From contig OZ017761.1 of NCBI GenBank assembly GCA_963969365.1, positions 1,736,001 to 1,800,000 of the forward strand: a stretch of DNA of 64,000 nucleotides, given 5' to 3'. Positions 14,484 to 38,542 of this stretch are shown here, one piece after another. Position 1 is the first letter of the stretch, and every line of letters begins with the position of its first letter. Made by a program: the position numbers and the translations under genes. This DNA comes from Asterochloris sp. CNOR1. Taxonomy: Eukaryota; Chlorophyta; Trebouxiophyceae; Trebouxiales; Trebouxiaceae. A model generated the notes under the pieces. That model had not been told where the DNA came from. It worked only from the letters and a program-made list of their open reading frames with translations, and did no database searches.

Positions 14484-17400
14484 TCAAAACAGCATGTGTG
14501 CAGCCACCACAGCAGCGATGCTAAGTAGCATGGCAATGGCTGCTGTGCCATGTATGCTGGGTGCTGCAGCACCATATTGTGCAAGACTGTCCCCTGAGCT
14601 GCTGGTGCCCTGTCTGAGGCAGTTGGGCACACTGCTATAGGCAGCTGTGGACTGGATGGTGAAGTCTGAGACACTTTCAGTGATGAGGCCCCCAGTGCTG
14701 CCAGATGAGGCCTTGTTGGTCAGAGTGATCCAATCACTCAGGAACAACCAGTACCTGCAGAAGAGGGCCGCCGGCAAGGTTCTGGAATGCTGCAGATGGA
14801 GCCCACAAATGGTTCAAGAGTGCACGCAGAGCAGTGCTCAGGCTCTCAGGGGTCGCGCAGATGGTGGTGCTGGCTGGTGCTAGCGCACTCTTGGAGGCAT
14901 CATCAAGGTGATGGCAGAGAGAGTCTGGACAGCCCTCCTCCCTGGCTGTGCAGAAACATATTTGGCTGGAACACAGCCCTAGCTGCCGAGAGATGCATCC
15001 CTGTGCGGCCAGCACGACCGATGTTGCTGCAAACTTGTGCTGCGCTTGAACTGTTCAGCGTGCCAGCAGGAGCGCAGCAGGCACGCCACACAGTGCAGGC
15101 GAGCAGCAGGCAAGCTGTAGAGCAACCAGGCAGCAGGCACCCAGCTTTGCACCCCAGCAGTGCGCCAGCCACTGTGGCAATCTGGCACCCACCCCAGCAA
15201 GGCCGCCCGGGACAGGACCGAAAGAGGCTGCTGTCTTGTGCACCATGTTGCCACAACAGAGCAGCATGAAGGCCCAGAGCGTCCGGGGCTCAGACAGCGC
15301 CCTCTGCAGAATGCAGGCTGCCATGTGCAGGCTGAGCAGAGCAACACTAGTTGCCAGAGCATCAAGGCCTGGAGGCATCCAGCGCTCCACTCACTTGCTC
15401 CCTGTCCCGTTGCTGGGTGTGGCAGCGGTTTCAGCCAGCCAGCCTTGGTGCACTGCTTTGTTGTTTGTAAACGTCCAGTCGATCAGGTCGTTGGAGACAG
15501 TGGCCTCTGTCTTGTTCTGGTCGAACCAGGAGATCAGCTTGAGGTTGGGCATGGCCACAGAGATGTCCAGGGCGTTTGTCGTGTCGCCATTCACATTGTA
15601 GAGCTGCAGCAAACACATGGACAACGCTTGGTGACTGATGACATTGCACAGAAGTAGGGCTCTTGCGGACTGTGTTCGGCTTTGGGCATGCGGCAGGTCC
15701 CGCGTTGGCAACACGCAATGCTGGCAAGCTGCAGGCCCAGACATGAGTACCTGCAGCAATTTGTGGCGGCGCTGGCTGGAAGCGCCTGCTGTCTGGAAAA
15801 GGTGGCCTTCAAAGTGCTCAGCTGCAGCACAAACAAGTGCAAGACGATGCTGTCGTGGTGCCAGAAGTCAGCAAGCTTGCCATGTTGGCCACGAAATTGC
15901 TTCCCACGCTCACCAGCTGGCTTCACACAGATGTGACAGACAGTTGTTACAACCCCTCATCTGCCCGCTGCCTTGCCAAGGGCAGCAGGGATGATAAAAT
16001 GCCCAGGTGTCCCATACCCCAGGCGGATTGGCAAGACAGCCCTGCCTGGCTTCCCTGGCCGTCAGAGCAGCTGCCTGAGCTGCGCCAGCCTCTGAGCTCA
16101 CCTGCTGTCCTAGCAAAGCTTTGCTGGACATCTCTGAGGGCCCCTGTCCTGTCGCTTACCTCACTTCTGCCACTCATGCAGCCCCTGAGCTCACCTGCTG
16201 CCACCAGGTGGACTTGATGGACAGCTCCGAGGCTCCCTGGCCAGCCTGGTTCTCATTGTACAGCGCTGAAGTCTCCGGCACGCACATGGGCTTGCCATGA
16301 GTGGAGTTGCTGCCTGAGTAGACCTCATAGAAGTTGGGGATGCCTCTGTAGTCCACAGAGGCGGACACAAAGGTGCCAAAGATCTGCAACAGGAGCAGCA
16401 GGTCAGCCAAGGCAATGTCAACCAGATGACATCTCTGTAGTCCTTGCATGAGAACCCCAGACTCCAGAGATCTGCAGCAGGCACAGCAGCTCAACCAGAT
16501 CAATGGCAATCAGAGGACACCTCTATAGTCCTTGCATGGAAGCTTCAGGTTCTGAGGATCAGTCAGAGCAGTGCCACCTAGAGGACACCCCTGTAGTCCT
16601 TGCATGAGAGCCCCAGGCTTTCATAGAGCTGCGGCAGGCACGGCAGGGCAGGGGCTGGCTGGCGCTCAAGTGGTGGGCCTGTGTGACATGTGTGCACTGA
16701 TGGGCTGATTGGCAAAGCCAAAGCTTCACGCGTGCACATCAGGTTTGCTGCCAGAACTGAGTTCTGGACACCTGCAGCAAGCACACCAGAACTGCTGATG
16801 GACAGATGTGAGGCTGACAGCCACCGGCATGTGCATGGCAGGTCTCAAAGGGCGAACATGTTCAGGTGCTTGAGTGCCGGTGGGATGGGCTTCATCAAAG
16901 TCGGCCGCCACGTTGCATCATCTGTGCCCTGGCACTGACTCAGAGCTAGCATGCCTCCTGCAAAGCAGGCAAGCAGCAAAGAACTGCACATAGCAAGCAT
17001 CCCCAAAAGAGGTGTAGCTTGCACACCGTTGATGTAAATGTCCGTGGCAGTGGCACAACATTGGCTCCGTATGGGAAGGAGGTGCCAAAGTGGTAGATGC
17101 TGCAGCCCACCCAATCAACGTAGTCATCTCCCTGCAGCCAGCAGCCACAGGTTTGACCAGCACTGAGCTGTGGTGGGCCTGCAAAGCCAGTGGCTGGCAT
17201 GGACCTCTAAAAGCGGCAGATGGCACCTATGATAAACGAACGTTCCTGAAGGCAGGCACCTCCCACCTTGGGTAGGTTGGTACAGCAAGCAGCGCTGGAT
17301 GCCAACCTCAGGTCGGACCAAACCAAAGCCTGCTGGCCAGCGCCCAGGACTCAGCATATGTAGCACCAGCCCCCATAGCAGTGGTTCAAGGATCAGAGAG

Positions 17401-19637
17401 TTCATCACACTGCTTGATCTGGCTGTCTCCCAGTGCGTCCCCTGCTCGTCGACGCCAGCATTGCAAAAAGCCGCTCCTGCCTGCACTTACGGGTCCCAGG
17501 CAAACCAGGCCTACCAAGCCCCCCAGAAGCCACCTACTTGAGGTGCAGACTTGGCTGCACCATGGTGCAGGCAGCATGGCTCACAGGGTAGAAGGGGGCA
17601 TAGGGGTCGTCAGTTTGTGTGATCTGGCCGTCTCCATTGGTGTCCATGGCTTTGAAGTCAGTGGTGGAAACATAGTCTGCGATGGCTGTGCCGTTGGGGA
17701 AGGGGTAACCGCCCCCATTGTTGGGGGCCCACAGCATGAAGGTGCGGCAGGTGTACTGCACACAGAGGCCAGAAGACTTGAGGTCGCAGCAGGAGCAGTG
17801 GTGCTGTGATATGAGACGCCCACAGTTAGAGGTGCAGCAGGTGTACTGCAGGCAGGGGCACCAAGGCAGGCATGCTCAAAGCATCAGGGCACAGTAGGTG
17901 CTTGGTCAGCGGCATATGACAGACGCAGATGTGATGCATGCAAAGGCAGTCTTTGGCACCAGGCAGGGGGCTGTGGGGTGTCTAGGGCTGGACAGCTCTC
18001 AGGTAGCATTTGCAACAGCTCTCGGCGGTTGTGACTGACAACAGGATGCAGCAATGCTGTTCCTGACACCGCCTTGCATTGTGAGGACCGCCGTGCCTTG
18101 CTGGCAACCTCACCTGACGAATGGCATTAGTCATGCGTTGGAAGGCTGCCACATACTCTGTGGGCTGCTGGCCCCAGTTGTACCAGTTCCCTGCAATGCA
18201 GCAGTGGCAGCTTGAGACCCATGGGTGCTAGGATAGACAGCACGCGGCATGATGGCTCGCTGCATGTCTGCCAGGCCTTTCACTAAACGCTCTGAAGGGT
18301 GCCAGCTGTGCTGCAGAGAATGCTGGAGTGCCGCAAGGGCACGCCTGAAAGACATCATGGCTACCAAGCTCTGCCTTGGCGTGCACTGGCTCAGACAGGT
18401 GCACAACATGAGAAAGGCTGTGTGCCCCACAACACGCACACAGGCAGACTCAGCATAGCACTGCAGCGTGCTCACAGGAGGCCTGCAAACGCAATGCAAT
18501 CGAGCCCAAGCCAGTGCCACTTGATGCCCCGCAGCACTACACTGCTCTCACCATTCATCTCATGCCCAAACTCAATCATCACGATAGCGCCCTGCTGCTC
18601 ATAGCCGTTCAGGACCTTGGCAAAGCTGGTGGCCACTGCATCTGTCATGGCTGCCAGGCCCGCAGTGGGCTGAGCCACGATGATGGCCAGGGCCCCCTTG
18701 ACTGCAATCTGCACCAGAGAGAGGCTGTGGGTTGATGACGGTGCCAGTACACTGACAGCAGAGAACCCAGGCGGTTGCAGCCTCCCAAAGACACAGGCTG
18801 CCTGCTGTGCTGAAGCCTGGCCCCTGGGCCCTCTGCGTCGGTGAGTCAGGCAGCCAGCAGCCAGTCCTAGATGGATGCAAGCACGGCATAACACTCTAAG
18901 TCGTACGGGTGATGGATGCATCATGCTTCAAGCAAAGGCCTGCGGCGAATGAAGTAAGGGGGCTGCTTTAGGTCGGCCTGCATGCACCTGCACGTCCTGC
19001 GACAGCAGGCAATTGCTCCAATGCCGGTGCTGTGGGCCAACATGAGCTGGCAAGACCATCATCACCACAGAGACAGGCTGGAACAAGCAACAACTGACCT
19101 GGGGGACAACGTTATCTAGGAGCCCCTTGTCCTGTGCATTCAGGGGCAAACTGCAGCATCAAGCTGGTGTCAGCACAGGGGCAAGCATGGCAGCATCTTG
19201 TGTGTGGTGCTGGCCACAATGCAGGCTTGTCACACTCTGGCATTGCAGTGAGTGTCTCAGGCACTTTGAGGGGTACGGGAGCAACCCAAAGCAAACAATG
19301 CCTTTGTGCACAGGGTGCCAGCAGCAGCAATATCAGGTGCACTTCACAGGCCGCTGCTGGGTGTGCTGCTGCTTTGCAAGCACTCTCTTTGTTTCTCAGA
19401 CACCATGGCACAGCCATGCGGCCACGGCCTGCACATGTCTGCTCACTTGATGTAGACAGTGTAGCTGGCAGGGTTTATCTGCGCATACAGGGAGTAGTCG
19501 TTGACGGACTTCCACTCATTCCAGTCGATGCTGACACCAATGAAGGCCCCCGATGCGGGCACAAGGGGATTGGTGGCCTGGACCAGCGCTGCAGCAGCTA
19601 ACAGGAGGGCAGCCACCCGCTGCAACAGCTGCACCAT
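14484..19637 (-). CDS. Secreted GPI-anchored GH26-like glycoside hydrolase
   Basis: Likely cell-surface beta-mannanase or related beta-glycanase of family GH26; substrate inferred. Nine exons in gene order, all phase-consistent: 19447-19637, 19099-19150, 18552-18708, 18114-18190, 17585-17755, 17027-17131, 16195-16383, 15395-15603, 14484-14754, giving 473 residues. Residues 1-21 are a signal peptide. The acid/base motif GHEMNG|NWYNWG (about 129-139) is joined across an intron. The nucleophile region is KPMCVPETSALY, with Glu near 288. Residues 197-208 form an EF-hand-like loop, DTNGDGQITQTD, followed by DDPYAPFYP and then DYVDWVG. The last exon ends in a hydrophobic tail after small residues (MLLSIAAVVAAHMLF), typical of GPI attachment. 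A stop at 15391 would end the protein earlier, but the splice at 15394 is exactly in phase and gives the anchor. Confidence 0.82.
16343..16635. repeat. Exon fragment and three intronic copies in GH26 gene
   Basis: The exon segment CCTCTGTAGTCC at 16343 recurs in the neighbouring intron at about 16433, 16521 and 16590. The intronic copies share extra sequence (TGTAGTCCTTGCATG). They sit 5' of the exon in gene orientation, with spacing of about 70-90 bp. Confidence 0.7.
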
Positions 19638-20535: not shown

Positions 20536-23500
20536 ATGTCATCCGATCGGGACCACACGCGGCGGGCAGCCCAGGAGCCCGTCCCGCACCGCACCGGCTC
20601 TGTGGAGCACCGCTGGTCCCCCTCACAAACAATGCACCCAGGGAGCGCAGGGCTGACCATGGTGCGTCAGCCCTCTGGCGGCATGCCCCGCGCCCTGAGC
20701 GCAGCGCTGGACCGCGAGATGTCGGGGCAGCTGCCGCCCTCGGTGGTGCCCATTGTGCCCGCGCGACCAGGGTCCGGAATCCCTGGGCACGCTCTGGAGC
20801 TAGATCCAGCCAGGTGGGAGCCACATGCACCAGTGCATGGGTGCATGAGTCTAGGCTGTGTAGGAGTTGTGGAGCTTGATCCAGCCCAGCTGGGGCCAGG
20901 CCGTCACTGGTGGAGACGCCTGGATGTAGCTTGGGCCGATATGACTGCTCGACCTGTTGCATGCCGCCCTTGCTGACGCCTATTGTGCCGACGCACGATT
21001 GGGGTCAGTGATTCCTGTACAGGGCGGATGCTGCTGACGTCGGCAAAATTTCACCTTGGGCCTTGCTATAATGCTCTCAAGCAGCCTTGCACTGCAAGGT
21101 AGCATGTCTTCTTGCAAGACTGGTGAGTGCTGCATACAGCAGATCTTCCCTACAGGGCTGTCAACTGGAGCTGCCTGCATGGGAAGGCTTCTCTGCAGGG
21201 CTCTGCAACAGCTGCTGTTCTGCATGGGTCCCCTGGGAGCAGCCTTTGGCAGAAGTTCGCCACTTTATTTCAGGCGAACCTCCTTGAGCGGCCCACCCCT
21301 AGAAAAGGTGAAGGAGGCTGGGTCAGGGATCAACTTAGATGCGTATGCGGGCGACAACACGGGGACCATTAAGGCGCAGACGATGCAGGCTCTGCAGCCG
21401 CCGTCTGAGGCCTCCAATGTCCCCTTCTTTGTGGTGAGGCTGCCTGATACTATGACAGCCTGTGCATGACGGCGGCCCGTGCCGGCACCATTGACTGTCT
21501 GCAACTGTGTTGCTGCCGGTCACTCCATTTGCCATCAAGACAGGCCCAGCAAGCAGTGCAATCAAGTACAAATTGGTGGGTTGCAGCACTGCCAACATGG
21601 CATGCTCCGCAGGACATTATGTGGTGGTTTCATTGCTGTTAGGCTCTGCCAATGCAGCTGCCGTGAAGGTGGCATGCAGTAGCACTGGCCCTCTACACTC
21701 TTAGAAAGTCTTGTTCTGTCCAAACATGCCACTAGCTCCAATGCAACACTTGATTGCGTGTCCATACTATCCTGCCTGCAGAGCATGCTCCTCTGGCCCT
21801 TTCAGATATGTTGTAAGTGTCCCACGCCTACTGCCTGCAGAAACGAGTCAACACCTTCGGCCTGCTGCTGTTCCTGCTGTTCTGTGCTGTATACGTGTTC
21901 TACTTCTACGTCAGAATAGCCCACACCCTTCAGACAGGGTTCCTTGGCTACTCCATCTTTGTACTTGTCATTGAATTCATTAGCAGCACCAACATGGTGA
22001 GGCTCAGCTTGCACTATCAAGCATGCAGGCGCTGCATGCTTTGAGGCTCCTTGCAGCCTCTGAGGCTGTCAGCAGGGAGATTGGCACATCATGTTGCAGA
22101 GCCTTGTTTCTCAACTTGCTCAAGCACAGCCTGCAGTGCTGGTCACGCAGAATGAGGCTGGCTTTAGCAAATTCGTCATAAGGCGCCTCAGCATACTCGG
22201 CAGCACCTGTGCAGCCTCCTGCTCACCCAGAGAGCACAGCTCAAGTTCAGCACATCGTCACCAGCTGCCCGCAGCCTGCACAGCTACACTGACTGCTGCT
22301 TGCATCGTTTGACGAGCAGTGTCCAGCACCTCCCTCAAGCTGCTTGCGGCAAGGACGACCCCACTGACTGCCAAATTAGTGGCCTGCAGCTCATGTGTGC
22401 CCTGCAGCCAAAACGCCTTTACCAAATGCTAACACTGTGGCCTGCAGCTCCTGTATGGCCTCCTGCTGACCCGGAGGAAGGCTTACGTTGAGCACCCTGT
22501 CACGCGGCGCTTCCACGTGCGTGTCCTCATCCCCTGCTACAGCGAGAGCCTGGAGATTGTCCAGGCCACCACACTGGCCGCATTCAGGGCTGCGTTGCCC
22601 CCCGGCTGTGAGCGCACAGGTGAGGGTCGCTGCCTGAGTGCTGCTCAGCATGGGTGCAGCCGCCTACAGCAATGTAGTGCAGTCCAAGACCCAATGAGAG
22701 CTGTGCTGCTGCCAGTGTATCAATTGCTTAGATGGAGGAGTGGGGGCTGCTTTGCTGCTAGGTGTGAGCCCAGTTGTGGCCACAGCTGCGCTCCTGCCTA
22801 ACCGCAACTGCACATGAGGGCCCCTGCCAGGATGCTGCCTGGTGTGGGTCCAGCTGCGCTCAGAGCTGTGCTGCTGCCTAGCTGCAACCTGACAAGTGAG
22901 GGGATGGAGACTGCATAGCTGGGCAGGTTGTGTATAATGGTGCCAGCATAGCAGAGGAGGCCACATGGCTCAAGATCAAGATGTGGGAATAGCAATGCTG
23001 GTGCCGCTGCTCAGTGCCAGCTGATTGCAAAGGCACAGCGGCGGGATGCTGCATCACAAAAAAAAAAGCTTGTAATGCGCCATGCTTGTGCGCCTGCCAT
23101 GAGATGAGGGCAAGCGCCTCCGGAGCAGGCCTTCTGGCTGGCAGGCTTCTTCTTTGCCACGCCTCACTGCTGCCCCATCCCTGTTACAGTGTACATCTTG
23201 GATGATGGCAAGGATGCCTCCAAAAAGGCCTGGGTCAAGAACCTTGGGGAGGACAGGGTGGTTTACATCCCCGGCCACATCAAGGGCGAAAATGAGATCA
23301 ATGGGAAGGCCCACAACCTCAACAATGCGCTGGGCATGATCTACCCCCCTGGCCATGAGATCTCCTTGGAAGAGGTGAGCTGCAGTGCGCTGGACACTCA
23401 GCCTGGCAGCTATAAACCTACTGGGCTGAGGAGTCCAGCGGCGTTGGGGATGATTCTTGCCCGGCTGAGTAGCAACATGCTCACAATCACGGCCACAAGG

Positions 23501-26500
23501 AGAAGTCTGGCCAGGAACAGCTACTGGATGGTTGAGACGCATGGCTTGCATTCTGGCACTGCAGGTGCAGCCAGCCATTCTGTAGAATCCGGCCGGCCTG
23601 CCTCAACAGTGGTTGCTGCAGGCGCCTTTGCGCGATGCCAGGGGTGCATGCTCGTCATGTGGATTCTTGCAGGCTTGCGTGTGCTGACACATGCAGTCTG
23701 AGGGCCTCTGCACCGTGAGGCCCCCTGCAAATGGTCACCTGCAGGCTGTGCACTTTGAAAGCCATTTGTACAGTACATCTCTGAGCTGCATTGGTTTGCT
23801 GACTGCAACTACTCTCCTCTTTTAGCAAGGATACAAAGCTGCTTTGCCACTAACCATTCATCTGATGCCCTGCAGCTGCTGTGCGTCTTTGACGCTGACA
23901 TGGTGTGCACAGCCGAGTTCTTCTTGAAGACCATGCCCCGCATTGGAGATGACAAGGTGACCTGCCCTTCCCCAGCAGCCTTGTTGGCAGCAACTTTGCA
24001 TTGATCAGCTTCCGCAGAGTCTTGACTTGCCATGATGGCAGAGCCTGAGAGTGTAGCAGCTCTGGCACTGGCACCTCAATCTCTGACTGGTGCTCTCAGC
24101 ATCGCCAAGTTTGCTTGCAGATGGCATGCACCAGCTGTTGGTCATGGCTGGGTCACGGGCTGGTTGTGACTGCCGCACGTGAGCTCCTTGCATCAAAAAC
24201 CCAAAACTGGACCGAAGCGTGAATTTCTCTGCAGGTCAGCATTGTGCTGACGCCGCAGGCCTTCCACAACTACAAAACTGACAAGGACATCTTTAACCAC
24301 AGTGCCTTTGCCTACTGGAATGTCATGGTGCCTGGCGAGGACGCTTGGGGCCACATTGTCTGCACAGGCAAGTAGACACTGTGTTGCATGAGGCTAGTTG
24401 TGCATGATTGAGAACCCAGGAATGCCATGTGCTGGTCTCAGATGAGGGTGCCTGGCAAGACTTCCTGGGTCCACAGTGTCAGCACAGGTGCGCCCTCTGC
24501 CTGCTGCATCTGTGTTGCAGTGGCCGTGGCAGTGCCTGGTACCACGTTGCGTGCACAGGCATGCTTTCAGTGCTGCACAGGCGGCGGCCAACAAGATGTG
24601 CAGGGGGTTGGGTGCCAGGCTGTCATGCCTTGGGTGACATCGGGTGCACAGGTGTGTGCATTCCTGCTCCACCCACAGCAGTAGTGCCTCTCAATATTCC
24701 CCTTGCAAGCGAGATGGAGCGTACATACGCTGCAGCATAGCCAGGAGCAGGTCTGTGCTTCTCGCAGCTCTTGTAGCAGGGCAGAAAGCCTTGGACGCAA
24801 CTCCCTTCTGCACAGCTGACTGCAGGCGTCTGGCAAGAGTGGACAATCACCTGTATCTCTGGCCTTGCAGGCTCTAAGTCTGTCATGTCCACCTGGCATA
24901 CCAAGATTTCCTTGCAGTCCGTTTAGTAGAGTCTGCAAAGCTGTAACCTGTGCGTCCCTGCAGGATCCAACTTCCTCATGCGCGCCCGCTACTGCATGGA
25001 GGTCGGTGGCTTCCCCACATACACCATGTGCGAGGACTTTGCGCTGGCCCTGGAGTTCCAGGCAAAGGGCCTGCGCAGCGCCTACGTGCAGGAGTACCTG
25101 GCGGTGGGCGAGGTGCCCACCACCATCCGTGGGACCTTCCAGCAGCGATCTAGGTGAGCAGGATTCTATAATGGTCTTCATGTGCCCTGGAAGCTGCCTT
25201 TTTTGGCGATTTGGTAAGACCAGCAGGGCGAGGTGCCCACCAGCATGCGTGGCACCCAACAGCAGATCTTTGACTTCGGTGAAAGCGTGCATGCAGACCG
25301 TCATTTTGCACTTGGCAGCAATTAAGTGTGTTTCCTGTCTGCCTGCAGGTGGTGCAAGGGCGGCATGCAGATCTGGTTCTCGCGACGCAACTGGTGGATC
25401 CGGACAGACATCAGCCTCCTGCAGAAGATCATCTGGAGCATCAGCTGCTGGGGCTACCTGACACACTCCATCTCCTGCCCCGTCTTCCTGCTGATCCCTG
25501 TCATAGGCATCTGGCTGCGCATCTTCCCCCTGGAAAACAACATCTGGTGAGCTGCTTTGTGCAGCTGATCAGCTTGTAGCTGTGCGCACCGTGTCAGCTG
25601 CTGGCTGCTGATGCAGCCCTTGTGGAATGCTGGGTCTCCTGTGACCTTCTCTCAATGTGATAGGCACCCCTGACTTGGGTGCAGACATAGTATGGGAGGT
25701 GAGGTCCTAGCAGCTGCCTGGTGGCAGGTTTGAGTGTCCTGCACATACTCAGCAGCCTTCCCCTCCACATCAAGGCGAGGTGGCTCCATACTGAATGATC
25801 GCAACTGCAATGCCTGCAGGTTTGCGGCGGCGTTCACTCTCTACTTCTTGGTGATGCACATCATGGCCTACTGGTGCTCCGACTGGCTCACCTTCCGCAG
25901 CATCTGGTTTGCCTCCATCAACAGCAACAACATGTGGTTCTCCTTCCTCAAGGCCTGGACCAACGTGCTGGTCAGCAAGTTCACCCAAAAGCAGTCTGGC
26001 TTCAAGGTGTGTACTGCAACCTTGAGGGAGTGCATTAGTTGGGAGCTTTCTGGGATGTTGAGCTTGTTGCCGCAGCCTGAAATCAGTTCATTGTACAGAT
26101 AGGTGCTGCGTGGACTCTGCATCGTACAGGCTGCGAGAAATGTCCTGCATGCAAGAAATAGGGATTCTATAACAAGATCAGGAGGAGACACAAAAGCATG
26201 TCTCGCACAGGCTGTGACAGATGCAGGCTGCTGTTCAGTCTTCTGGCTTGCCACCTGTCCGCTCCTGCGCTCCCGTACTGGAATGGCAGACGGCCTCTGC
26301 TCAGCTGCCTTGCTGCACATCAGTGCCGCGTTTCTGCAGGTCCACCCCAACTCTGACACCACTGCAGCTCCCCGTATGAGACAGCACAAGAGGGCTGCAG
26401 CCCATGCCCAACACAAGGGTGGCATGCTGGTGCTTGCAGGTGACCCCAAAGTCCGACTCCATTGCAACCTCCACCCCCGTCAAGGGACAGAAGGCTGCAT

Positions 26501-29500
26501 CCCCCACCAGGAGACGGTGGCGTCTTAGCCCGGCCTTCAGGGATCTCTGGATGCCCATTGCCATCCTGGTCCTCAACCTGGCCACCATTGGCCTGGGCAT
26601 CTACCGTCTGTACAAGGTGTGCACTGACATCAATGGGTTGGAGCCTTTGATGAGCTTGAGCAGCACACCTGGGCAAGATGCTGCCATGCTGCCATCCTCT
26701 GGGCCTGTGTCCCACCAAGGCTGCAGCATCTTTGAAGACATGATGTGTGTGGCCTTGGACGGTTATTTGACAGGCCATCCTGCAGCACGCTGCCCTCCCC
26801 AGGCAGGCTGTAGCCCCTGCCTGTCAGTGTCCTGTTGCAAGTGCTCACATCCTTTCTCTGAGATGCGACCAGTCATCACCGTTGTCTTGCTTCCTGCCCG
26901 CAGGAGAGCGAGCCTTCCCAGCTGGAGACCTTCTCCCTGGTGGTCTCGCTGGCCTGGGCCTGCTACAACACCATTCCCCCCCTCCTGCTGCTGCACTATG
27001 CCTGGGTCCAGAACAGGTTCCTGCGCGCCACTATCACCTTCTCCACCATCTGGGGCACCCTCATGCTGCTGGTCGTCATCGTGGCCATCTGGCTGCTGCT
27101 GCCCAACATCTATGATTTTGGTTCGGTGAGCTCTGCACGCAACACACTGTCAGTCATGGCTGCTCCTGTCCAGCACACAGGCTCAGATCATGTGTGTGCT
27201 TTTGTTTGTGTGCTGTGGAGCATCCCTCATGCTGCTGGTGGTTCTCTTGACCATCTGGCTGCTGCTGCTGGGCACCTGCGACTTTGACTTGTTGAGCTAC
27301 CAGAAGTACAAGGGTGCTGTGCATGCCCAGCAAACTCCTGCCCAGCACCTGCGGCCCTCATGAGTCTGGCAAAGCTGCCTGTCTGGCTGCTCCTGGCCAG
27401 CACCACCTGCAGATCCAGCTGCCAATACTGATGGTAAAACAGCTGAGGCTGCCACACGCACGCACCACCATTGCTGCTTCTATGTGCAGGCACTGCAAGG
27501 ATCAATGAAGTTCTATGACGCCGAGAGATCTGGAGTGATTCCTTCTGGCTACGACATCCCCTGGCGGGGCAGCTCAGCCCTCAAGGACAGCTACAATGGG
27601 CAGGACCTCACTGGGGGTTTCTATGATGGTGGCAACGGTGTGTACCCTCGACTGCTAAGCTGATTTGTAGATGCCTAGGACCGCAAACGATGCTCAGCCG
27701 CGCCATGTAGGCTGCTTAATCACAGCAAATCGAAGCCAGTGCGCCATGCAACAGCTACTCAAGTCCCTGTTCCAGGCCTTTTGGGCAGCTGTTCTGCAGG
27801 GCAATCTAGGATATACCGGCATGACATCATGACAACTCCGCTGGCCTGCCTGCAGGGTACATCAAGTCGGTGTATCCCATTGCAGTCAGCACAGCCCTGC
27901 TGTCCTGGGGCCTGCTGGAGTTTCCCAAGGTGAGGGACAGGCTGTTGCTTCTGCGAGCCTCACATGCTGCACGACAAATCTTTGCTGGAAGGCTGCATTC
28001 ACCGTGGGCAATCCTGCACAACTATCGACAGGTGTGTTTGCTAGACTGAGGTCAGCAATGTTTGCCTTTGACGCAGGTCTGCTCCCAACTTGCTGTGCTG
28101 CCTGAGGTAGCTCGCTCAGCTGCGTCAACTAGAGCAGTGCATACACTTGGGCTTCATTCCAGAGCACCTCTGAGCTTCTGCTCAGAGATGCGCTGCCGGC
28201 TGACGGTCGCAGCAGAGGCAAAGGGACAGCAACCCTGGAAACCTGAAGCCTCACACAGGGTTGCAGCACTGTGCAGTCTGACAGTGCTGTGCTTGAACAC
28301 TGGCGGCAGTCGTGCGTCGCTGTCTGTAGGGGTATCAGCGCACCAACCAGACAGCCAAGGTCATGGACACCATCAGACAGGGCACCGACTTCCTGGTCAA
28401 GTGCAACCTGGGGAACAACCAGTTCGTGGTCCAGGTTGCTGAAGTTGCCTGCCGAGATGGGCTCCTTGTATGGTGACACAGTAGGGCTGCAGAGCGACCC
28501 TGGTGCATTTGATTGAATGGGCACGTGGGTGCGTTGGCCTGGCAAGACGGCTTGTAGGGAAGTAACAAAGCAAGGATGGACAGGGACTTCAGTGTCATCA
28601 GACTGTGGGGTCCTGAACCGCATCCAGCCACTTCCCCTTAAGGAGCAGCGACTTCTTGTGGGGTCCACACGACATCAGCAGCTGTTCTGGCCCTTGCATG
28701 TCACCAGCCTAAGGCGGTCAACAGATCTTGCTGCAGGGCCGCCCCTTTGACCGAGCGCTTTGCCGAGCAACAATTATACCAGGCATTACTTGCATTCACC
28801 CCTGTGCAGGTGGGCTCGTATGCAGATGATTCAACGGATCTCAACCCTCCAGAGCAGATGACGCAGGCACGCCCAGTCTTCCTGGTCAATGCTACTGCCC
28901 CCGGCTCCGACATTGCCGGCTCCAGTGCAGCAGCGCTGGCTGCTGCCTACATGGTGTTCCAGAGCACTGAGTCCAGCTACGCGGCCACCCTGCTGACCAA
29001 TGCAAAGTCTTTGTACACGTGAGCGCCTGTGCAGTCACGCCAGCTGATTGTTGTGGTTCACAGCAGACCTCTAAGAGGCTGCATGTCGTGTCTAGTGTGT
29101 TCTCATCACATGGCACATGAAACACCTCTTGCTCCGCAAGACTCCTGCGCTTCTGCTTGTCCTGTGGGTGGCAATCTGCATTACACTGGCAGCTGATGCA
29201 TCAGCCAAGCCGCCTACTGCATTAAAATGGCAGCTGGTGCATCAGCCTGATTGTCCACTGGCCAGGTCTGCCCATGCTGAAGAACTGCCAGGCACACATC
29301 CATGCTACCATGCTACTGCAGCTGCAACCTGTGGCTGGCTTTGCCCTTGCAGGGGCCTGCTGGCGCATAATTCACTGCTCCAGCCTCCAGCGCATGAGAG
29401 GACACCTAGAACTCATTCATTTGCAGGAAGTGCCGGGGGCTAGCGCTGCTCTGTGCAGGGCTGACATGCAAGTCGGTTATGATGCTGAGGCGTGCCTTGT

Positions 29501-32040
29501 GGCTGTAGGTTTGCAACCACCTACCCAGGCCTGGTGGGCAACTCTGTGCCTGAAGTCTCCAACCTCTACTTCTCCACCTCCTTCCGGGACGACTTGGCAT
29601 GGGCAGCCATCTGGCTCTATCAGGCTACAGGCGACTCCTCGTACCTCTCGGTACGTGAGCCCAGGAATGCTTTGCCGACCACCTGCTTTTGGTGGACTTG
29701 GGGTCACTCTGTCATGCTACCAGGGAGCGTTTTAACCTCTCATTGAGTTGCGCTGAACTGCATGCTTGTAGAGCTGAGCTTCACATGTCCGGCGTCAGAC
29801 TTTGCTCAGCCTGCAGGACCTCTGGGAAATTGTGGAGGGGTTGTATCGGAGTGCTGGCTGCGTTTACATCTTGATGCCTTTTCATGCTGGCAGCTTGCAT
29901 GCAGGGGCAACTGTGTCAGGCTTCAGGGTGTTTACTCACTTCTGTTGCTGTGGTGACTCACTTGTTCAAAGTAAAGCCGCCTGCTTGGAGCTTTCTATGG
30001 GGGCAACCGCTGGCCCACACATATTGCCTTAGGCAGATCTCTGCAAGGCTGCAGCAGGTCTAGTTGTGCTGCTGGGCTTGCAACACACTTAAGGCAGGGA
30101 ATTTGTGCGGCTTCGTCGGCTCCTGCCCCTTCACAAGCCTGACTCCCCCCTCCAGGTCTGGCTAGGGCCCATACCTCTGGTCTGTGCTTGCTTGCTGCCC
30201 TTCTGCAGCCGACCCTGCAGGACACTGGGCAGACTCCAGAAGCCACCTGTAGTGTCCACTCCACTGCTATCCCACACAGATGTGCTGGTTCAATCAATGT
30301 TCTCATGCCCTGTTCACCTGGAGTCCATCTGGCATGCAGGACGCGGAGATGTACAAGGCGCAGAGCCTGTCAGATGAGGTGGACGCCGACCGCAACTTCA
30401 ACGTGTGGAACTACCAGAACAGCCTGCCAGGCGTGAACCTGCTGCTGGCTCGGGCCACAAACTTCTCCACTGCCAACCTGTACACGCTGGCCACTGAGGG
30501 CTTCCTCAAGGTCTGGATGATGGGGTGGCTCACCATCAGGTGAGGCATAGGCACAGTCTCAGGGAGACGAGGGCAAGGTGTGCTGTGCTGTGGGACTGAC
30601 CAACTACTCGGACAAGATGACTTTCACACCTTTGCATAGACTGCTCGCGGCCCTTGCTGGGCACTTTGTGATATGGCTGAGCATGGGAGACAAGCAGGAT
30701 GCTGTGACCTTGTACGTGCTGCAAGCTGGGTGAGGACATCTGCTCAGCTGGGCGGCTATACATTGAAGTTTGTCAAATGCATGCCTTGAGGGAGAGGGGG
30801 ACAGCATGACTCATTGAAGTGGGCAGCCTGTGCTGCCCTCAGAAGATGAGCCCTGCCATTGCCTGCTCCCTCTGCCGGTGTGATCCTGGCAGTGTCAACT
30901 TGCAAGCATCCTCCCTAGCCCCTGCCGGCCAAAGGCACCCTGCAGGCGGCTCCGCCCCCCCAGGCTGTTGCCACAGCTGGCAGCCGCCCTGCCTGCGTCC
31001 TGTCCTGCGGGCAGCTCTGCACTTAGATGGGCTCTGCAGATTCTGCAGCCAGTTCTGCGCCCTGCAGGTACACCCCCCATCTGCTGGCCTACACCCCAGA
31101 TGCACCCCTCAGGAACTCTGCCAACGCAGCGTTCCTGGCGATGATGTATGCCAAGCACCGCCCTGCCAAGTATGACTGCTGGGCGGAGTCTCAGGCTCGC
31201 TACTTCATGGGCAGCTCGGGACGCAGCTTCATGGTTGGCCTCGGGCACAGCCCCCCTGTGCGCAGCTATGACAAGGTATGTCTGTCTCTGGGGTTTTTCT
31301 GGGGTGTTCTGCAGGTGGCTGGAGCTGCTGGCTGATTTAGGGAGGCCCATAAGCCATCAAGGTGCAGCCAGAAGCCTCTGCACAGCCCACAGCCTGTGCC
31401 CAGCCGTAGCCAGCCATGCTGTGGGGACTGTTCAGGCAGTAGTCATATTAAAAGTGTGGTGGTTTGTGGGCAGAGGCCGGTGGGGCAGCACTGAGCAGCG
31501 CAGCCAGGGCAGCCAAGTGCTCAGCTGGTCAGCTGGCAAGCCATGAAGCAGGGCTTGCAGGAAGCATGCAGCCATGTCTCTAGGCCCCCATGTCAGCCAA
31601 TTCATGGGATCAGGCCATCAGCAATTGGCAGCTGTCTGATGACCCCAGTGAATGCGGCAGTTCAACAGCCCCTGCCTGGATGAATCGCAGCCCTGCAGTC
31701 TTCAGGCCGCATGTGGCCCTCAATGCTGCCCCAGCGGCATATGATCACACAGCGCTGCACGGCCAAGTGATGCACATGTGCCACACCACACCAGCATTCT
31801 GCAGGCGCCTGCAGTGCCCAGCCCAACACGACTGTCCTGCGCATGCAGGTTGCCATGTGCAGCACCAACAACGGTGCTGGGTACTGCCTGGCCGTCACCT
31901 CGGGGCAGCCGAACCCCCACGTGAACACTGGGGCCATGGTGGACGGCCCAGACGTCTCTGACGGCTACAACGACGAACGGAGTTTCATGTCCATGGCTGG
32001 CGTGCACCTGGACAACAATGCAGGCCTGTCAGGTGGGTGA
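20536..32040 (+). CDS. Cellulose-synthase-like GT2 fused to a GH9-like module
   Basis: Integral-membrane processive beta-glycan synthase with a C-terminal GH9 module, about 1199 residues. Exons, all phase-matched: 20536-20813, 21274-21433, 21841-21996, 22448-22619, 23190-23374, 23876-23956, 24235-24367, 24964-25153, 25349-25546, 25820-26006, 26440-26616, 26904-27125, 27490-27637, 27856-27929, 28330-28434, 28810-29018, 29509-29650, 30340-30539, 31068-31275, 31584-31766, 31849-32040. Residues 1-92 are hydrophilic. Two helices follow (about 150-215), then the GT domain: VYILDDGKD (about 256), VFDADMV (321), CED (412) and QQRSRWCKG (448). About five more helices follow, with a gating-loop-like GFKVTPKS near 578. 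Residues 714-1199 are GH9-like. The end may be the stop at 32038-32040 or a further splice at 32033. The glucan made is inferred to be cellulose-like; other beta-glycans are possible. Confidence 0.85.
20858..21030 (+). repeat. Copies of exon-1 end inside intron 1 of GT2-GH9
   Basis: GGAGCTTGATCCAGCC (about 20870) repeats the exon-1 end GGAGCTAGATCCAGCC (20796). A second, weaker copy of CCTATTGTGCC...GATTCCTGTACAG (20976-21020) echoes CCCATTGTGCC...GGAATCCCTGG of the same exon. Both are degenerate and lie in the intron. Confidence 0.6.
24446..24565 (+). repeat. Two copies of exon-7 end inside intron 7 of GT2-GH9
   Basis: GGTGCCTGGC at 24327 in the exon recurs at 24447. CCACATTGTC at 24351 recurs as CCACAGTGTC at 24471. 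Both offsets are exactly 120 bp. A third, weaker version occupies 24531-24562 and keeps GTGCACAGGC. The copied part includes the splice-donor neighbourhood. Confidence 0.75.
25217..25276 (+). repeat. Copy of exon-8 end inside intron 8 of GT2-GH9
   Basis: GCGAGGTGCCCACCA in the exon (25108-25122) is repeated exactly 120 bp downstream (25228-25242). Similarity continues through a diverged CAGCAG..ATCT segment. This part of the exon encodes the region just before QxxRW. Confidence 0.8.
27218..27293 (+). repeat. Copy of exon-12 end inside intron 12 of GT2-GH9
   Basis: TCATGCTGCTGGT at 27061 recurs at 27227, and CCATCTGGCTGCTGCTG at 27085 recurs at 27251, an offset of 166 bp. The copy would encode a similar hydrophobic helix (LMLLVVLLTIWLLLLG) in one frame. 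It lies in the intron that joins the synthase and GH9 parts. Confidence 0.8.
27490..32040 (+). other. Catalytically degenerate GH9 module of the fusion gene
   Basis: Nine exons (residues 714-1199) cover essentially the whole GH9 catalytic-domain length. The start FYDAERSGVIP...WRG matches the family's first helix. Other landmarks are GGFYDGGNG, LLSWGLLEF, AAALAAAYMVF, DDLAWAAIWLYQATGD and LDNNAGLSG. Family knowledge: GH9 uses two Asp in a DAGD motif, a late Glu in a NEVA-type motif and a His in HHR. Here DAGD is DGGN (base Asp replaced by Asn at about 762), the acid position is Gly (about 1187) and the HHR segment reads VRSYDK. The module has no signal peptide or start of its own, which supports the fusion. 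Confidence 0.8.
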
Positions 32041-33252
32041 CCTGAGGAGCAATTGAAGTCTGGAGTACCGAGGAACTGTCTGCTGCGTGGGGCTGCCTGT
32101 GCAGTGAGCAGCAATGAGGACCTTGTCGCCTGCGCTGGTCATTGAATGGGCTGCGTCGGCATGCCTTGAACAAGCCACTCAGCCTCATTTGGCCCAGCAA
32201 ACATCACTTGCTAGCGCAAGTACTAATGCTGAGTTTTGGCACCATGTGTGCACCAGATCCGCCGGAAGGTGTCGCAGCTTTTGCACTGTCTCTCCCTGCC
32301 TTGTCCCTCTTTGGAACCATCTCCCCGCCCTCCTCTCACCAACTCAGAGTGTCATGGTTTGAAAAAGCAGCACTCTCAGCACCTCCTCCCGCTACCAGAT
32401 GGTGCAGATGTTGGCCTCTGGTTTAGGCAGCTTTGGCTGCACCTCCTACATTTGCCTGCTGCACCTGCAGGACTTCTTGCTGGCTTGGAGCAGCTGGATA
32501 TAAATTGGGCGTCATGCACAGCAGGCGTCAATTTTGTCAAGATGAAAATTCAGGGGCGCCCAATCTAGCTTGGGCTGTCGAAGTGACTCACATTGCACAT
32601 ACACAGGCAACTCTAGCAGTCTCTCAAAGCAACAAGCCCAGGTCAGCACACCCACTAGTGATAGTTTCTGATTGGTTGACTTACTTTATGACTGGATTCT
32701 TCAAATAATCCTCACTCAGTGCTGGACATGCAAGAACCAGCCAGAGTTAGCAGAAGTCAAGATTTGCCAAACAGCAGAACCCAGATATTGTAGGTTCGTG
32801 GGCAATGTCTGCAAAGCAGGGACTCAACCTGCACTGACCAACCTATGACCACGGCCTGGGACATGAAGTACTGATGCTTTCCAACATGGTACACACAGGC
32901 GATGTGACAGCAGGTGAGTCATCAGAGAATGAAGGGGCCTAGACTATGCCAACGGCTGCTTGGGCATTCCCCATGCCAGCCATCTGTGCAGCCCCCGTCT
33001 TCCCCTCCGCTAACCTCCTCCTGCTCCTTGCTCTTTACCTGTGCTGATTTCATTCAGGAGATGGGGAACACTAGTCCCTGAAAACCTACGATGGTGGGTG
33101 TCAATAAGTGACACTCAAACGAGCGTTGGTGGCATAGCCACAGCTTCAGGGTCGCGGGTTTGTACATGCTGTCACAACATAAGGGAGGGGGCCAATGTGG
33201 AGTACAACTTTCAAACTAGAGACAGCCCTGATAATGTGAGGGTTGGTGCGGT
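32041..33252. other. Gap between convergent GT2-GH9 and UAH genes
   Basis: The 1.2 kb between the two 3' ends should contain both 3' UTRs. Short open frames exist but no domain or phase-consistent continuation of the GH9 gene was found. One segment near 33120-33170 vaguely resembles a tRNA T-arm but does not fold convincingly. Confidence 0.4.
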
Positions 33253-36200
33253 TCAAAGCTCCTGGGAGCCTGCGCTGGTTGCCGAGGCCGGCGCCTCCCC
33301 AGCCAAAGCTGCCAGTGTGAGAGCCAGTGTCTTTACTCCATTCTCGATGTCACTGGCGGAGGAGAACTCGTCAGGCCTGTGGCTCCACCCGTTTTTGCAG
33401 GGGATGAAGATCATGCCAGTGGGGGCCAGCTGCGCCATGAACAGGCTGTCGTGGTATGCCCTGCTGACCATGCGCTTGTGAGACAGCTTGAGCTGCTTGG
33501 CGGACTGCTCCACAGCCTTGAGCACCTGCAGCACGTTGGGGGTCAGGGGTCGTCAGGAGCATCGCCTGGCCTGCTGCACCGCCTGGGCTGCTGCGCTGCC
33601 GAGCATGCCCAATTTCATCCAGCAAACACATACAAAGCTGGCTGACAGAGGCCCATGTGCCTAACAGCCACTGAAAGATCAGCCCCAAGCTGCACACTTG
33701 GACTGGAAACATCTTTCAGATGAGAAGCGCTCAAACCACCACCCATGGTAGCAACAGCAAGCCCGGTGACATCAGACTCTTACCACATCGCTGCAGGTGG
33801 CAGGAGGGTCGGAGTTGATCATCTCCAGGGTGTGCTGCACGCCTCTGGCTTTGGCTACAGCCTGCAGGGCAAGGCGGGGGGTTCCACCAGACGTGTAGCC
33901 ACACGGACCTCTGCACAACCCTTGATCATAGCCAAGCCTGCAGGCTGAACTGCTCTGAGATCAGCAGTTCGACCTGCAGACAAATCCCCAGCCCTGGTGA
34001 TGGCCAGTGAGGGAGACTGCCCACAGGCTGGGAGTGCCACCACAGCATGTGCAGCTGCAGCGAGCTGTGTGGATGCCTGGACGCTGCCTCGCGCCTGCCA
34101 GAGCAGCCATGGCATTCCTTTGGGTGCCTGCATGCTGATCAGCTCCAACTGATGAAACCCTGATGGGGGTTTCCATGCTGACCATAACCCCACAAAGACA
34201 GCGTGCTCGCCCAGGCTGGCTGCCGGCATGCTCCCCATCCCAGGACGTCCCGCTGGGACTGCTCACCTTGGCCTTGTTCTGCACAGACTTGACAGTCCGG
34301 TCCCGCCGCCGGCCATCAATGTCACGAATGTCGACCTCTACCCTAGCTTCGTTGGGGACAGCGTTGATGGCGTTGGACTTGATGTGCCAGGCCCCAGTAG
34401 TGCCGACAGCATCATGGGAGCCTGCAGGTCTCAGGGGACCACTTCCGTGAGCAGCCATGGGGGGTGTCACTGGCTCTGGAAAGTCATGTTGTGACTGCGC
34501 AGGGTCAGGCATGGCCAAGCACCGCTTCAGACAGATCAGACATAGCATGCCACCTGCCAGCGCAAGCATATACCAGCCAGGCTGCACATGGCAGGGCGTG
34601 GTAGCTGGTCACGCGAGATGTGTACTCACAAACCCCTGCTGCACTTGCAAGGTGCCATGCAGCCCGTGCCAGAAAATGCAGACCGCAGTTGCAGAGCAGG
34701 CTGACCTGTGTCCAGAACCGTCTTCTCAATGTGGAGGGCCACCTCTGCCGCAGCGAGAACAGGGTCATGCCTGCATGCAAGATGCATGTCCCTCTGGCAT
34801 GGTCTTCTGGCTAGCATTAGAGAGGCAAGCCTGGCTGCACCGAGAGGAGGGTTTCTGTTTCACTGAGGTACTGCCCTGAGGCCCACTTCATTGTTGGGAG
34901 AATCAGGCTTCACTTGTTGCATGCCACCTCTTGCAAAGGCTCTGCTGCTGCCAGGCTGCACTTGTTAGCACAGGCTGCATGGCACCCTGGCAATGCAGCA
35001 GGGGTACATGAGCACTTGAATTGCATGCCCAGCTGCCTTTCCCTGTGTGTCTGTAGCAGGCCCTAGGCAGGGCTTCCCCAAGCAGTCTGACACCGCAATC
35101 TGGCATTCTTGTGCGATTTGCAGCAGCAGGCGAGGCTATGAGGGTCCACATTGGGCGCCTGCACGACCTACCTCCTTTTTCCAGCTGCAGAGATAGACTA
35201 CAAGCAGACTGGGGCTCCAGGAGCAGACAGCATGCATGGCACCTGCCTCCTTCCCACTTGTAGGGCTCACACTAAGCCTGCTCAGCAAGCGAATCTCAGG
35301 CGTGCACCTGTCCTTCCAAACAGCCGTGCATGCCACCCACCCCTGTGAAGTAAACTAATCTGCAGTCTGCCCAGCAAACCTGTCTAGTAGGCCAGCAGGC
35401 TGCACTGCTCACCTGTCCTTCATGAGCAGAGCCCCCGCGTGCCCACCGCCCCCATTGAACTGCAGCCTGAACGAGGCCGGCGCTGCAATGGCAGTCACCA
35501 CCCCCAGTTTGTACCGCTCCTTCTCCAGCAGGGGCCCCTGCTCAATGTGCAGCTCCACAAAGGCAGCAACCTGGCCCTTGGCAACCTTAGTATTCTTGAG
35601 GATCTCCTGCAGAAATGAGTGAACAGACTGTCAGTGCAGCAAGGCCTAATGGCCGGCCCTTGCGGGCCTTGACTTCTGCAAGACAGTCTGTGGGCACGAC
35701 ACACTACATGCTTCTGCCAGGCAGGGTCACCAATGTGGCGACCTGGCCATGGGGGACCTTTGACATTGTTGAGATCTCTTGCTGGCAGGATGGACTCTCA
35801 TCGGGAACAACAAGCTTGGGGTTTTCAGGCACGCTGCTGCCCATATGCAGGCAGTCAAGCTTTCATAGGAAATTCACGCGTGCTGTACAAGGAGATGCTC
35901 TGAAGGTGAGCCAGACCAGACCTGGCTCAGCCATCTGAAGCAGTTAAGATGCAGCCTCATCTGGAAGTTCACGCTGCACCCTGTTGCAGTTCAGCCCAGT
36001 CCCTGAAGCTGTCTGGTGCCAGCAGCCTTCAGAGAAGGCAAGCAGAAACGACACTCGACCCTATAAGACCAGCTCATCCACTACAGCGCCAAGCAGCAGG
36101 CTGACATTGTGGGAGCTGCCGCTGCAGCCTGCTGTGGCAGCATTTGAGAGCTGGAGCCAGTAAGCTCAGGTCAAAACAGCACTACCAAGCCGCAGCAACA

Positions 36201-38542
36201 GGCTGCAGCCTTACCTTGTGAGAGCTGCCGCCATAGCCAGCTGCTGTTGCAGCGTCCTTGAAGCTGGAGCCATTGATGTCCAGTTTCTGGTCCAGGTACT
36301 TGGCGGTCAGGGTGCCAGCCATGCCCCGACTAGAGGAACAGCAGGAGCCTTGTGAGCTTGCTCTGAGGATTTGTTCACAACTTGAAAATCTAGTAGAATT
36401 ATTGGCAGTCTGAAAGCCTGCGCTGGGGCAAGTGACAATCAAGGTGACACAATGCTGCGGCATTGCAAGAGAACCTCAAGTGAGAAGTGCTCGTGATAGC
36501 GCTGCTCTGGGTGTGCAGCTTCCTGCAAAACAGCATGCTCCACACATGCCTGCCACCACTACTGGTCGCAGACCCGAACAGACACACAGGATCAAGGCTC
36601 ATGTGCTCAAGCAGCCCAGCCTAACTCTGGTGGACCCAGAGGGGCCCATAGGCGGAAGAGTAGCATATGGCAGGGCCTCACTAGCCGATGCAGCCCATAC
36701 CAGATATGGTAGGCCCCTCAGCAGTGGACCAGGCAGAGTGGGCTAGATGAGATGGTGCTGTGAGTGTCAGAGACCAGGGCCTCACCTGCCAATGCAGCCC
36801 AGGCCAAATCTTGTGGGCTCCTCAGAGGTAAACATGAGGACGTCAATGGGCTTGGCAGGCTTGAACCCTGCCGACTGCAGCCCCTTGACTGCTGCAATGG
36901 CTCCAATGACCCCCAGCGTGCCGTCATACGCTCCTGCCAAGGGGATGGCGTCGCAGTGGGAGCCTGTCACCACTGCCCCTGCAGCAACAACCGGGCCTAA
37001 GTCAGTTTACAACAGATTTGAAAGCGGTTCCACTAGCTTGTATGGCTGTGTGGAAAGGTTGTCAAGTGCCCCTCATTCTCCCGGGTGGGCCACTGCAGCT
37101 TCTCCAGCCTGGCCAATGCTCAGCAGTCAGCCTCAGCCCGGCCGTGCTGAGCTGAAGACCACCTGTCGCATGAAGCGGAACAAAGGTTGTGTGCGCACTG
37201 CAGACATAGCAGCAGTCCTGCACACGGTAACGCCTGAGCAGCCAGTCACAATGGCCGCCCGGGGAGCGAATTGCAACTGCGTGTAGCACTGCAGGGACAG
37301 TGAAGCCGTGCAGCTACCAACCAGCACTATGGGCTCCTGCCACGAGACTGGTGTTGCAAGGGGGCCTGTGATAACCGCTGGTGCAACACTAACGGCAGAA
37401 GACCATTGCGTGCGGCAGCAACATGGCGCCCTTGCCAGTCACACACCTGCTGCAGCCTGCTGTACACTCAGCAGGGGGCTCGAGAGGGCTCTTGATGCAG
37501 CTGGGCACAGCATGGCAATTTGATAGTATTGTGGGCTGCTCTGGGCTGGAATGTCCCAGTGGCAGCCTCTCTCCTTGCTGCCTCCCAGTGCCGTGCTGCC
37601 AGAGCCCTCAAGCCCCTCCCAGGGCGGCCCCTGTGCACATTGTTCACGAGAAACTAGCCACCTTCTCTCTGTGCTACTTCCTCAGTGAGAGGTTGTCCGC
37701 TTGCCTCAGGGTCGCTGCCTGCCAGGCACCCTTGCTGCATGCATCTACGTATACTTATGACAGAGGCCATAGTCTTGCTGCCCCGCCTTCTCCATGAGAG
37801 GTGAGCTCACCTGCCTTGGGCTCGCTGCCTGGCAGCCGGCCCCATATGTTCCCCATGGGGTCTTCTCTGATGGCCAACCCAGCCTTTTCCATCAGGACTT
37901 TCACATATCTGCACACAAGAAACTTACTGAGCACCCATCTCAGAGAGAGCCGGCCAGAACTAAGGCAGAGGGCACCACATCAATCACAAGGACCTGCTGC
38001 ATATTGCAGAGCTTAGTTGCAAGAATCTGCTGCAGTGCTTTGCGAAAAGCTGCGGGAGTGCATCCCTGACTGCTCTGCAGGCAACAACAGAGGGCCCAGT
38101 GCACAGGCAGCCCCTCCTGCAAGCCGGCCTTCAGGCGCTCTGGGGGGCTCAGAGCCAGGCGGTCTGTAAGTTTTGCCTCACACAGGAGGCCATATAGCAG
38201 GGCAGCTCACTTCCTGCCATGTAGGTCATTCTCTGTGAAAAGCACCCGTGTCACTGCTGGGTTGGGGTCATCTGAGAACCTGGCCAGCTCCAGCAGCTGC
38301 AGTGCAGCGGCAGAAAGTCTGATCCAGGACTGCAAGGGCTACCAAATTGGCCCCAGGTGGGTCAAAGTACATCCAGCAGCCAAGGCTCTGCTGATAGCAG
38401 TCAGCGCAGCACTCGCCTGGTCTACCACATCTTTGCCGGAGATCTGCAGTTTCTGAGGGTCCACTGCCGTGCATGCTGGCCAGGTCAGCCAGGAGGCAAG
38501 CAGCATCAGACCGAGCGATGCCCTTCCTGCTGGCATCACCAT
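33253..38542 (-). CDS. UAH: Ureidoglycolate amidohydrolase (M20 peptidase family)
   Basis: Last step of plant-type ureide breakdown: hydrolyses ureidoglycolate to glyoxylate, ammonia and CO2, recovering purine nitrogen. Ten phase-consistent exons in gene order: 38417-38542, 38211-38296, 37811-37908, 36786-36978, 36215-36329, 35413-35606, 34706-34770, 34267-34421, 33784-33861, 33253-33525, giving 460 residues, close to plant UAH. The N-terminus starts with a hydrophobic signal (LGLMLLASWLTWPACT), agreeing with the ER location known for Arabidopsis UAH. Metal and active-site motifs are complete: GSHCDAIP, AYDGTLG, FTSEEPTRFG, ELHIEQGP and SRAYHDSLF. PAVTRVLF, IAAPAS and MIFIPCKNGWSH also fit UAH. 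The close relative allantoate amidohydrolase is the main alternative; the SRAYHDSLFMA and TRVLF segments favour UAH. Intron 1 appears to use a GC donor (CAG|GCGAGT). Confidence 0.9.
35729..35785 (-). repeat. Copy of a UAH exon edge in the upstream intron
   Basis: ACCTGGCC and GATCTC of exon 35413-35606 (at 35569 and 35601) recur at 35741 and 35773, both offset by 172 bp. The copy lies 5' of the exon in gene orientation and includes the acceptor side. Confidence 0.65.
36107..36163 (-). repeat. Copy of UAH exon 5 end in the downstream intron
   Basis: GAGCTGCC (36222) and GCTGGAGCC (36263) of exon 36215-36329 recur at 36113 and 36150, offsets of 109 and 113 bp. The copy covers about 55 bp with small indels. 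Confidence 0.75.
36670..36724 (-). repeat. Copy of UAH exon 4 end in the downstream intron
   Basis: GGGCCTCAC, TGCAGCCCA and CCTCAG around 36777-36825 recur 104 bp away at 36673-36720. The copied block spans the exon end and its splice donor. Confidence 0.75.
37690..37726 (-). repeat. Copy of UAH exon 3 end in the downstream intron
   Basis: TCGCTGCCT at 37822 in exon 37811-37908 recurs at 37712, offset 110 bp, with GCCTCAGGG matching GCCTTGGGC beside it. Confidence 0.6.

Follow-up and report, generated by a model that had tools for sequence, protein, structure and literature searches.

Why a cellulase-like partner accompanies cellulose synthesis is an old question, to which the usual answer is that the partner edits or releases the chain. 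Bacterial synthases have a separate GH8 protein as their hydrolase partner, the plant GH9A protein KORRIGAN carries a membrane anchor of its own, and GH6 and GH9 have different folds. In the part of the literature cited here, KORRIGAN stands as a protein of its own, and its glucanase activity is needed (PMC9099982). For the tunicate CesA-GH6 protein, the section cited describes a catalytic Asp that lacks conservation and a domain that may be inactive, with its activity still to be determined (PMC7464555). In the green alga Coccomyxa subellipsoidea C-169, 4 of 9 GH9 proteins are described as having a cellulose synthase-like domain attached (Blanc et al. 2012, PMC3446292).

The gene examined here lies in a 64,000-nucleotide stretch of DNA from Asterochloris sp. 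CNOR1, the whole of which is called the window. It consists of a single spliced frame of 21 exons on the + strand that runs from the ATG at 20536 to the TAG ending at 32568 and passes from GT2 into GH9. The predicted product has 1168 residues, wherein a BcsA-like GT2 (residues 1-713) is followed by a full-length GH9 (714-1168). A sequence-only reading of this DNA knew of no description of such a single chain, yet this kind of fusion is already in print for Coccomyxa, as far as the cited part of that account goes (Blanc et al., PMC3446292). The two cases are alike in that a green alga carries several GT2-GH9 copies in its genome (4 of 9 GH9 proteins there, 6 of the 8 GH9 loci found here); the likeness is one of description and not of sequence, with catalytic residues and domain order falling outside the portion of the account cited (PMC3446292). 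The features of the gene are as follows.

Exon 1, 20536..20813, + strand: start ATG; N-terminal tail (low confidence)
Exon 2, 21274..21433, + strand: N-terminal tail; weak similarity only in paralogs C8a and C4
Exon 3, 21841..21996, + strand: predicted TM1-TM2
Exon 4, 22448..22619, + strand: GT2 domain begins
Exon 5, 23190..23374, + strand: GT2; DDG motif, residue 260
Exon 6, 23876..23956, + strand: GT2; DAD motif, residue 323
Exon 7, 24235..24367, + strand: GT2; GC donor
Exon 8, 24964..25153, + strand: GT2; ED motif (CED, residue 411), QQRSRW begins
Exon 9, 25349..25546, + strand: QQRSRW ends (448-453); predicted TM3
Exon 10, 25820..26006, + strand: predicted TM4; FKVTPK gating-loop-like motif begins (residue 579)
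Exon 11, 26440..26616, + strand: remainder of FKVTPK; predicted TM5
Exon 12, 26904..27125, + strand: predicted TM6-TM7; GT2 part ends (residue 713)
Joining intron, 27126..27489, + strand: phase 0; position and phase the same in C8a, at most 1 residue off in C4
Exon 13, 27490..27637, + strand: GH9 begins; DGGN instead of catalytic DAGD (residue 759)
Exon 14, 27856..27929, + strand: GH9
Exon 15, 28330..28434, + strand: GH9
Exon 16, 28810..29018, + strand: GH9
Exon 17, 29509..29650, + strand: GH9; Y206, D213 and W221 conserved (1ks8 numbering)
Exon 18, 30340..30539, + strand: GH9
Exon 19, 31068..31275, + strand: GH9; SYDK instead of PHHR motif (residue 1072)
Exon 20, 31849..32032, + strand: GH9; Gly instead of the catalytic acid Glu412
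Exon 21, 32471..32568, + strand: GH9 C-terminal tail, stop TAG; beyond the end given in the sequence-only reading

All 20 introns are of the GT-AG type with the sole exception of intron 7, which is GC-AG. A spliced aligner supplied with the model protein as query returned identical exons, which is a check of consistency and not independent evidence. The least certain part of the model is the N-terminal tail encoded by exons 1 and 2, most of which is missed by the alignments of paralogs C1, C8b and C14. Three earlier claims were upheld by these data, namely a single in-phase frame of 21 exons (borne out by the spliced model and by six loci of the same order), a joining intron at 27126-27489 that is phase 0 on both sides, and a GH9 part lacking a start of its own. 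With regard to the last, no in-frame ATG exists upstream of exon 13 as far back as the stop at 27361, and the first in-frame ATG of exon 13, at 27505, is already within GH9. The sequence TGTAA is absent from the + strand after 24942 up to 36000 and the gene's own end likewise lacks it, such that its absence carries little weight on the matter of a separate promoter or poly(A) site in intron 12.

The end of the gene had been placed at 32040, where reading exon 20 through its GT donor reaches a TGA (32038-32040) and shortens the GH9 domain. Splicing from 32032 to 32471 instead yields the tail GLLAGLEQLDINWASC, with the stop codon at 32566-32568. A tail matching GLLAGLEQLDINWASC lies inside the last exon of paralogs C8a, C1, C4 and C14. 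Because exon 21 (32471-32568) restores the GH9 tail and four paralogs read a matching one, we set the gene end at 32568.

Two other genes flank this locus. The divergent upstream gene (about 13500-19637, - strand) appears GH26-like by eye, with HEMNG and GNWYNWG sequences that we take to be GH26-type motifs; no GH26 match at a threshold of 0.01 was obtained with the unspliced pieces searched. The downstream gene (about 33200-39000, - strand) is convergent with the fusion gene and matches an M20 peptidase (E 5e-07).

The GT2 half matches Pfam families PF13632 (E 6.3e-15) and PF13641 (E 1.8e-14), and the six distinct sequences matched among solved structures are all cellulose synthases, with BcsA (5ej1) the best at E 3.6e-21. 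The NCBIfam model CelA TIGR03030, for UDP-forming cellulose synthase, scores 148.5 bits, far under its curated cut-off of 699.1. GT2 proteins of the BcsA/CesA type are distinguished by the motifs DDG, DxD, ED and QxxRW and by an FxVTxK gating loop. All of these occur in the window copy, as DDG at residue 260, DAD at 323, ED at 411 (CED), QQRSRW at 448 and FKVTPK at 579. The protein thus resembles bacterial BcsA/CelA in its motifs (DDG, DAD, ED, QxxRW, FxVTxK), its best solved relatives and its NCBIfam match, and differs from them in that Pfam finds no PilZ domain in the window protein. Elsewhere in the genome the gating loop reads FKTT or FKAT (C8a, C1, C4, C14 and the GT2 copy at C6) or FKIS (C8b).

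We searched the alga's own genome (56.4 Mb in 21 contigs), scoring the best candidates, so that locus counts are lower bounds. At least nine GT2 loci (47 matches) and at least eight GH9 loci (32 matches; 45 matches to the same eight loci at E up to 1) were found, and at 6 of the 9 GT2 loci found, which are also 6 of the 8 GH9 loci found, a GH9 comes after the GT2 in the same orientation. These six fused copies are the window gene and its five paralogs, C8a, C1, C4, C8b and C14. Each paralog aligns with the window protein through a single spliced model that extends from the first membrane helix as far as the GH9 tail and is free of stops in its aligned codons; that the frame is preserved in six copies, like the fusion itself, is read directly from the sequence. 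In two of the five, a single exon covers the last membrane helix (TM7) together with the start of GH9 (C1, 207434-207192; C8b, C8:1798016-1797791). Six of the seven closest GT2 loci have a GH9 neighbor within 1 kb, for which the chance would be about 1e-24 if placement were independent. Since the same-strand order of GT2 and then GH9 recurs at six loci of one genome, the fusion does not look like chance; it is practically certain to be real, and the six neighbor pairs likely share descent from one fused ancestor.

Among the best matches of the genome searches (E up to 1), no GH9 is present at the other three GT2 loci (C6, C12 and C13). The GT2 copy at C6 (about 1653400-1647500, - strand) is near the fused copies and has no convincing GH9 behind it. 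It pairs with C4 in the tree (82/89), and therefore its GH9 domain has probably been lost. A candidate GH9 remnant behind this copy, with a best tblastn E of 0.007 (E up to 10), was judged to be noise. Spliced GH9 alignments at C6 with four queries scored 60, 97, 60 and 68, and controls for two of these queries scored 48-54 (query C4, real score 60) and 54-70 (query C4lone, real score 97). Although the value of 97 is above its controls, we consider it noise because it is far below the scores of the real lone GH9s (347 and 502).

The GH9 half matches Pfam PF00759 over profile positions 4-444 of 444 (E 3.8e-105), and no other hydrolase family is matched in the chain. It aligns over nearly its whole length with solved GH9 endoglucanases (20 distinct sequences, 5 of them as alignments), the best shown being 1ks8 (E 2.7e-79), which we take to be termite NtEgl. 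In that structure we assume that E412 is the catalytic acid, that D54 and D57 of DAGD are the catalytic Asp pair, and that HHR is an active-site motif. The six fused GH9s were aligned to 1ks8 and to a second solved endoglucanase, 8ihw. E412 is missing from all six: the window copy has Gly there and the other five show a gap next to Arg, Leu or Ala, such that in five of six copies its loss depends on the alignment. H359, H124 and W301 are each lost in every fused copy. No copy keeps the D54-D57 pair whole, as the window copy alone retains D54 and C8b alone has an Asp in the D57 column. The HHR motif is nowhere complete (YDK in the window; the second His in C8a; Arg in C1). Y206, D213, W221 and R405 are retained in all six, W253 in five and W127 in four; the window copy has neither of the last two (W127 to Leu, W253 to Tyr). 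New invariants have also arisen among the six GH9 halves, including Cys-Trp at 329-330 and one extra Gly.

Like the fusion and the frame, this loss of catalytic residues is read directly from the sequence, and the fused GH9 is very probably catalytically dead. The sequence-only reading had proposed that the chain would tether two activities 1:1, an idea that is not supported, since each of the six fused copies has lost the catalytic acid along with further residues of the active site. KORRIGAN too is a membrane-linked GH9 in cellulose synthesis, whereas the window GH9 lacks the catalytic residues and is joined to a GT2 as the C-terminal half of the chain. We found no report in the open-access literature searched of an algal GH9 described as catalytically dead.

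When the rest of the genome was searched for a canonical GH9, the Pfam profile (E up to 1; best 25 of 45 matches scored) and 1ks8 (34 matches, best 34 scored) reached only the same eight loci. Two of these are lone GH9s, at C4:1873329-1876191 (+ strand) and C6:2567372-2561358 (- strand), and the active sites of both are altered. The lone C4 GH9 lacks E412 and is nested in the fused clade (93/92); the lone C6 GH9 keeps E412 and has Glu at D54 and Gly at D57. Because both are altered, the genome provides no intact GH9 as a control.

Mean identity between the six copies is 40.3% for GH9 and 43.8% for GT2. Mismatches at codon positions 1, 2 and 3 are 0.488, 0.429 and 0.563 for GH9 (6485 aligned codon pairs) and 0.464, 0.347 and 0.513 for GT2, as counted from all 15 pairs of the six copies, which are hence non-independent. 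The lack of stops, the identity near that of GT2 and the pattern of codon-position mismatches give the GH9 halves the look of domains that are not decaying, and the signal of constraint would be a modest one because third positions are near saturation. The GT2 and GH9 trees concur in pairing the window copy with C8a and in placing C1, C4 and C14 apart from that pair, and they conflict over C8b. A single early fusion may be the simplest reading of these trees, which fall short of proof.

Paralog C8b (C8:1804358-1792728, - strand) has lost the GH9 active site and also lacks DAD (KSD), ED (ES) and QxxRW, and its aligned codons are free of stops. C8b has the longest GT2 branch (1.57), while its GH9 branch (0.83) is no outlier, those of the other fused copies measuring 0.40-0.95; identity to C4 is 47.1% for GH9 and 38.6% for GT2. 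C8b is possibly a non-catalytic subunit. The loss of its GT2 motifs, together with its long GT2 branch and ordinary GH9 branch, suggests that the GH9 domain may have a role apart from synthesis in the same chain.

Alternative accounts of the GH9 half differ in how much of this evidence they accommodate. That the model wrongly joins a GT2 gene to a neighboring GH9 gene is scarcely credible: in its favor, the window's junction falls at an intron, yet this intron is shared with C8a, single exons cross the junction in C1 and C8b, the window GH9 has no upstream ATG, and fused proteins are reported in the cited part of the Coccomyxa account (PMC3446292). Nor is it at all likely that the GH9 half is a decaying relic free of selection. 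Such a relic would explain the lost active site, and the C6 GT2 copy, which has no GH9, is evidence that the domain can be missing; the aligned codons of five paralogs are nevertheless stop-free, GH9 identity (40.3%) is near that of GT2 (43.8%), and position 2 changes less than position 3.

An active endoglucanase, which would use other acidic residues and edit or release the nascent chain in the manner ascribed to KORRIGAN, is improbable. The match to the full-length profile, D54 in the window copy, the Asp in the D57 column of C8b and a Glu or Asp at position 416 in five of six copies are consistent with activity, as are, in the portions of those papers cited, the need for KOR1 activity in plants (PMC9099982) and the failure of AtMAN2/AtMAN5 catalytic-residue mutants to rescue glucomannan (PMC13181414). 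However, the catalytic acid and H359 are absent from all six copies, no copy has both Asp residues together, and position 416 is four residues away from 412 and is Ser in C14. A purely structural GH9, acting in folding, oligomer contacts or trafficking without contact with glucan, and with C8b as a pure scaffold subunit, is a possibility to be taken more seriously, albeit still a doubtful one. Several cleft residues are gone, and C8b, devoid of DAD, ED and QxxRW, remains stop-free in its aligned codons and has a GH9 closer to that of C4 than its GT2 is. Against this, Y206 and D213 are kept in all six copies and W253 in five.

The explanation that we prefer, and hold to be somewhat likelier true than false, is a secreting beta-glucan synthase with a dead, extracytoplasmic GH9-fold domain at its channel exit that would bind or guide the emerging glucan without cutting it. 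Its topology, product and guiding role are what we infer from the sequence. A hydropathy scan detects seven hydrophobic stretches ahead of GH9 in the window protein and eight in each of C8a, C1, C4 and C8b but seven in C14, such that seven is not uniform; we read the extra stretches as GT-domain or interface helices. Because seven is an odd number, the GH9 would lie across the membrane from the GT domain, either outside the cell or in a lumen, and the three Cys columns invariant in the six GH9 halves would fit an extracytoplasmic side. The product would be a beta-glucan, most likely cellulose. In the proposed mechanism, the GT2 would polymerize UDP-glucose, the growing chain would pass through the GT2's own membrane channel, and at the exit it would meet the GH9-fold domain, which would bind and guide it or else hold synthases together. 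The loss of the catalytic residues suggests that the attached domain may not cut new wall polymer but guide or hold it. The lost cleft residues (H124, H359 and W301 in all copies; W127 and W253 also in the window copy) weaken the argument that the domain binds glucan.

Tunicate CesA resembles this protein in combining a GT2 with a cellulase-family domain in which, in the section cited, the catalytic Asp is not conserved (PMC7464555). The two differ in that the tunicate domain is GH6, whereas GH9 is the only hydrolase family that Pfam finds in the window protein. The tunicate GT2-GH6 fusion presumably arose independently, and by analogy it is a possible convergent parallel. Among the viral contigs searched, 2 stretches fit the pattern for the GH9 protein and 33 and 69 for the two alignments, and none was confirmed; among prokaryote genome contigs, 38 and 46 stretches fit it for the GT2 alignment and its core, and again none was confirmed.

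More broadly, there may be a whole family of algal synthases with a built-in dead cellulase that guides the chain at its exit, with tunicates having independently acquired a dead GH6, wherein a non-cutting fold would be a recurrent feature of synthases. We regard this extension as tentative and somewhat more apt to fail than to hold. If it is true, then cutting would not be the sole reason that cellulases accompany glucan synthases. The partner found here is covalently attached and, as judged by its residues, unable to cut in all six of the fused copies found. If this is confirmed, a single gene family could allow the role of a GH9 fold in synthesis to be told apart from hydrolysis, and tunicate CesA-GH6 would be a parallel case.
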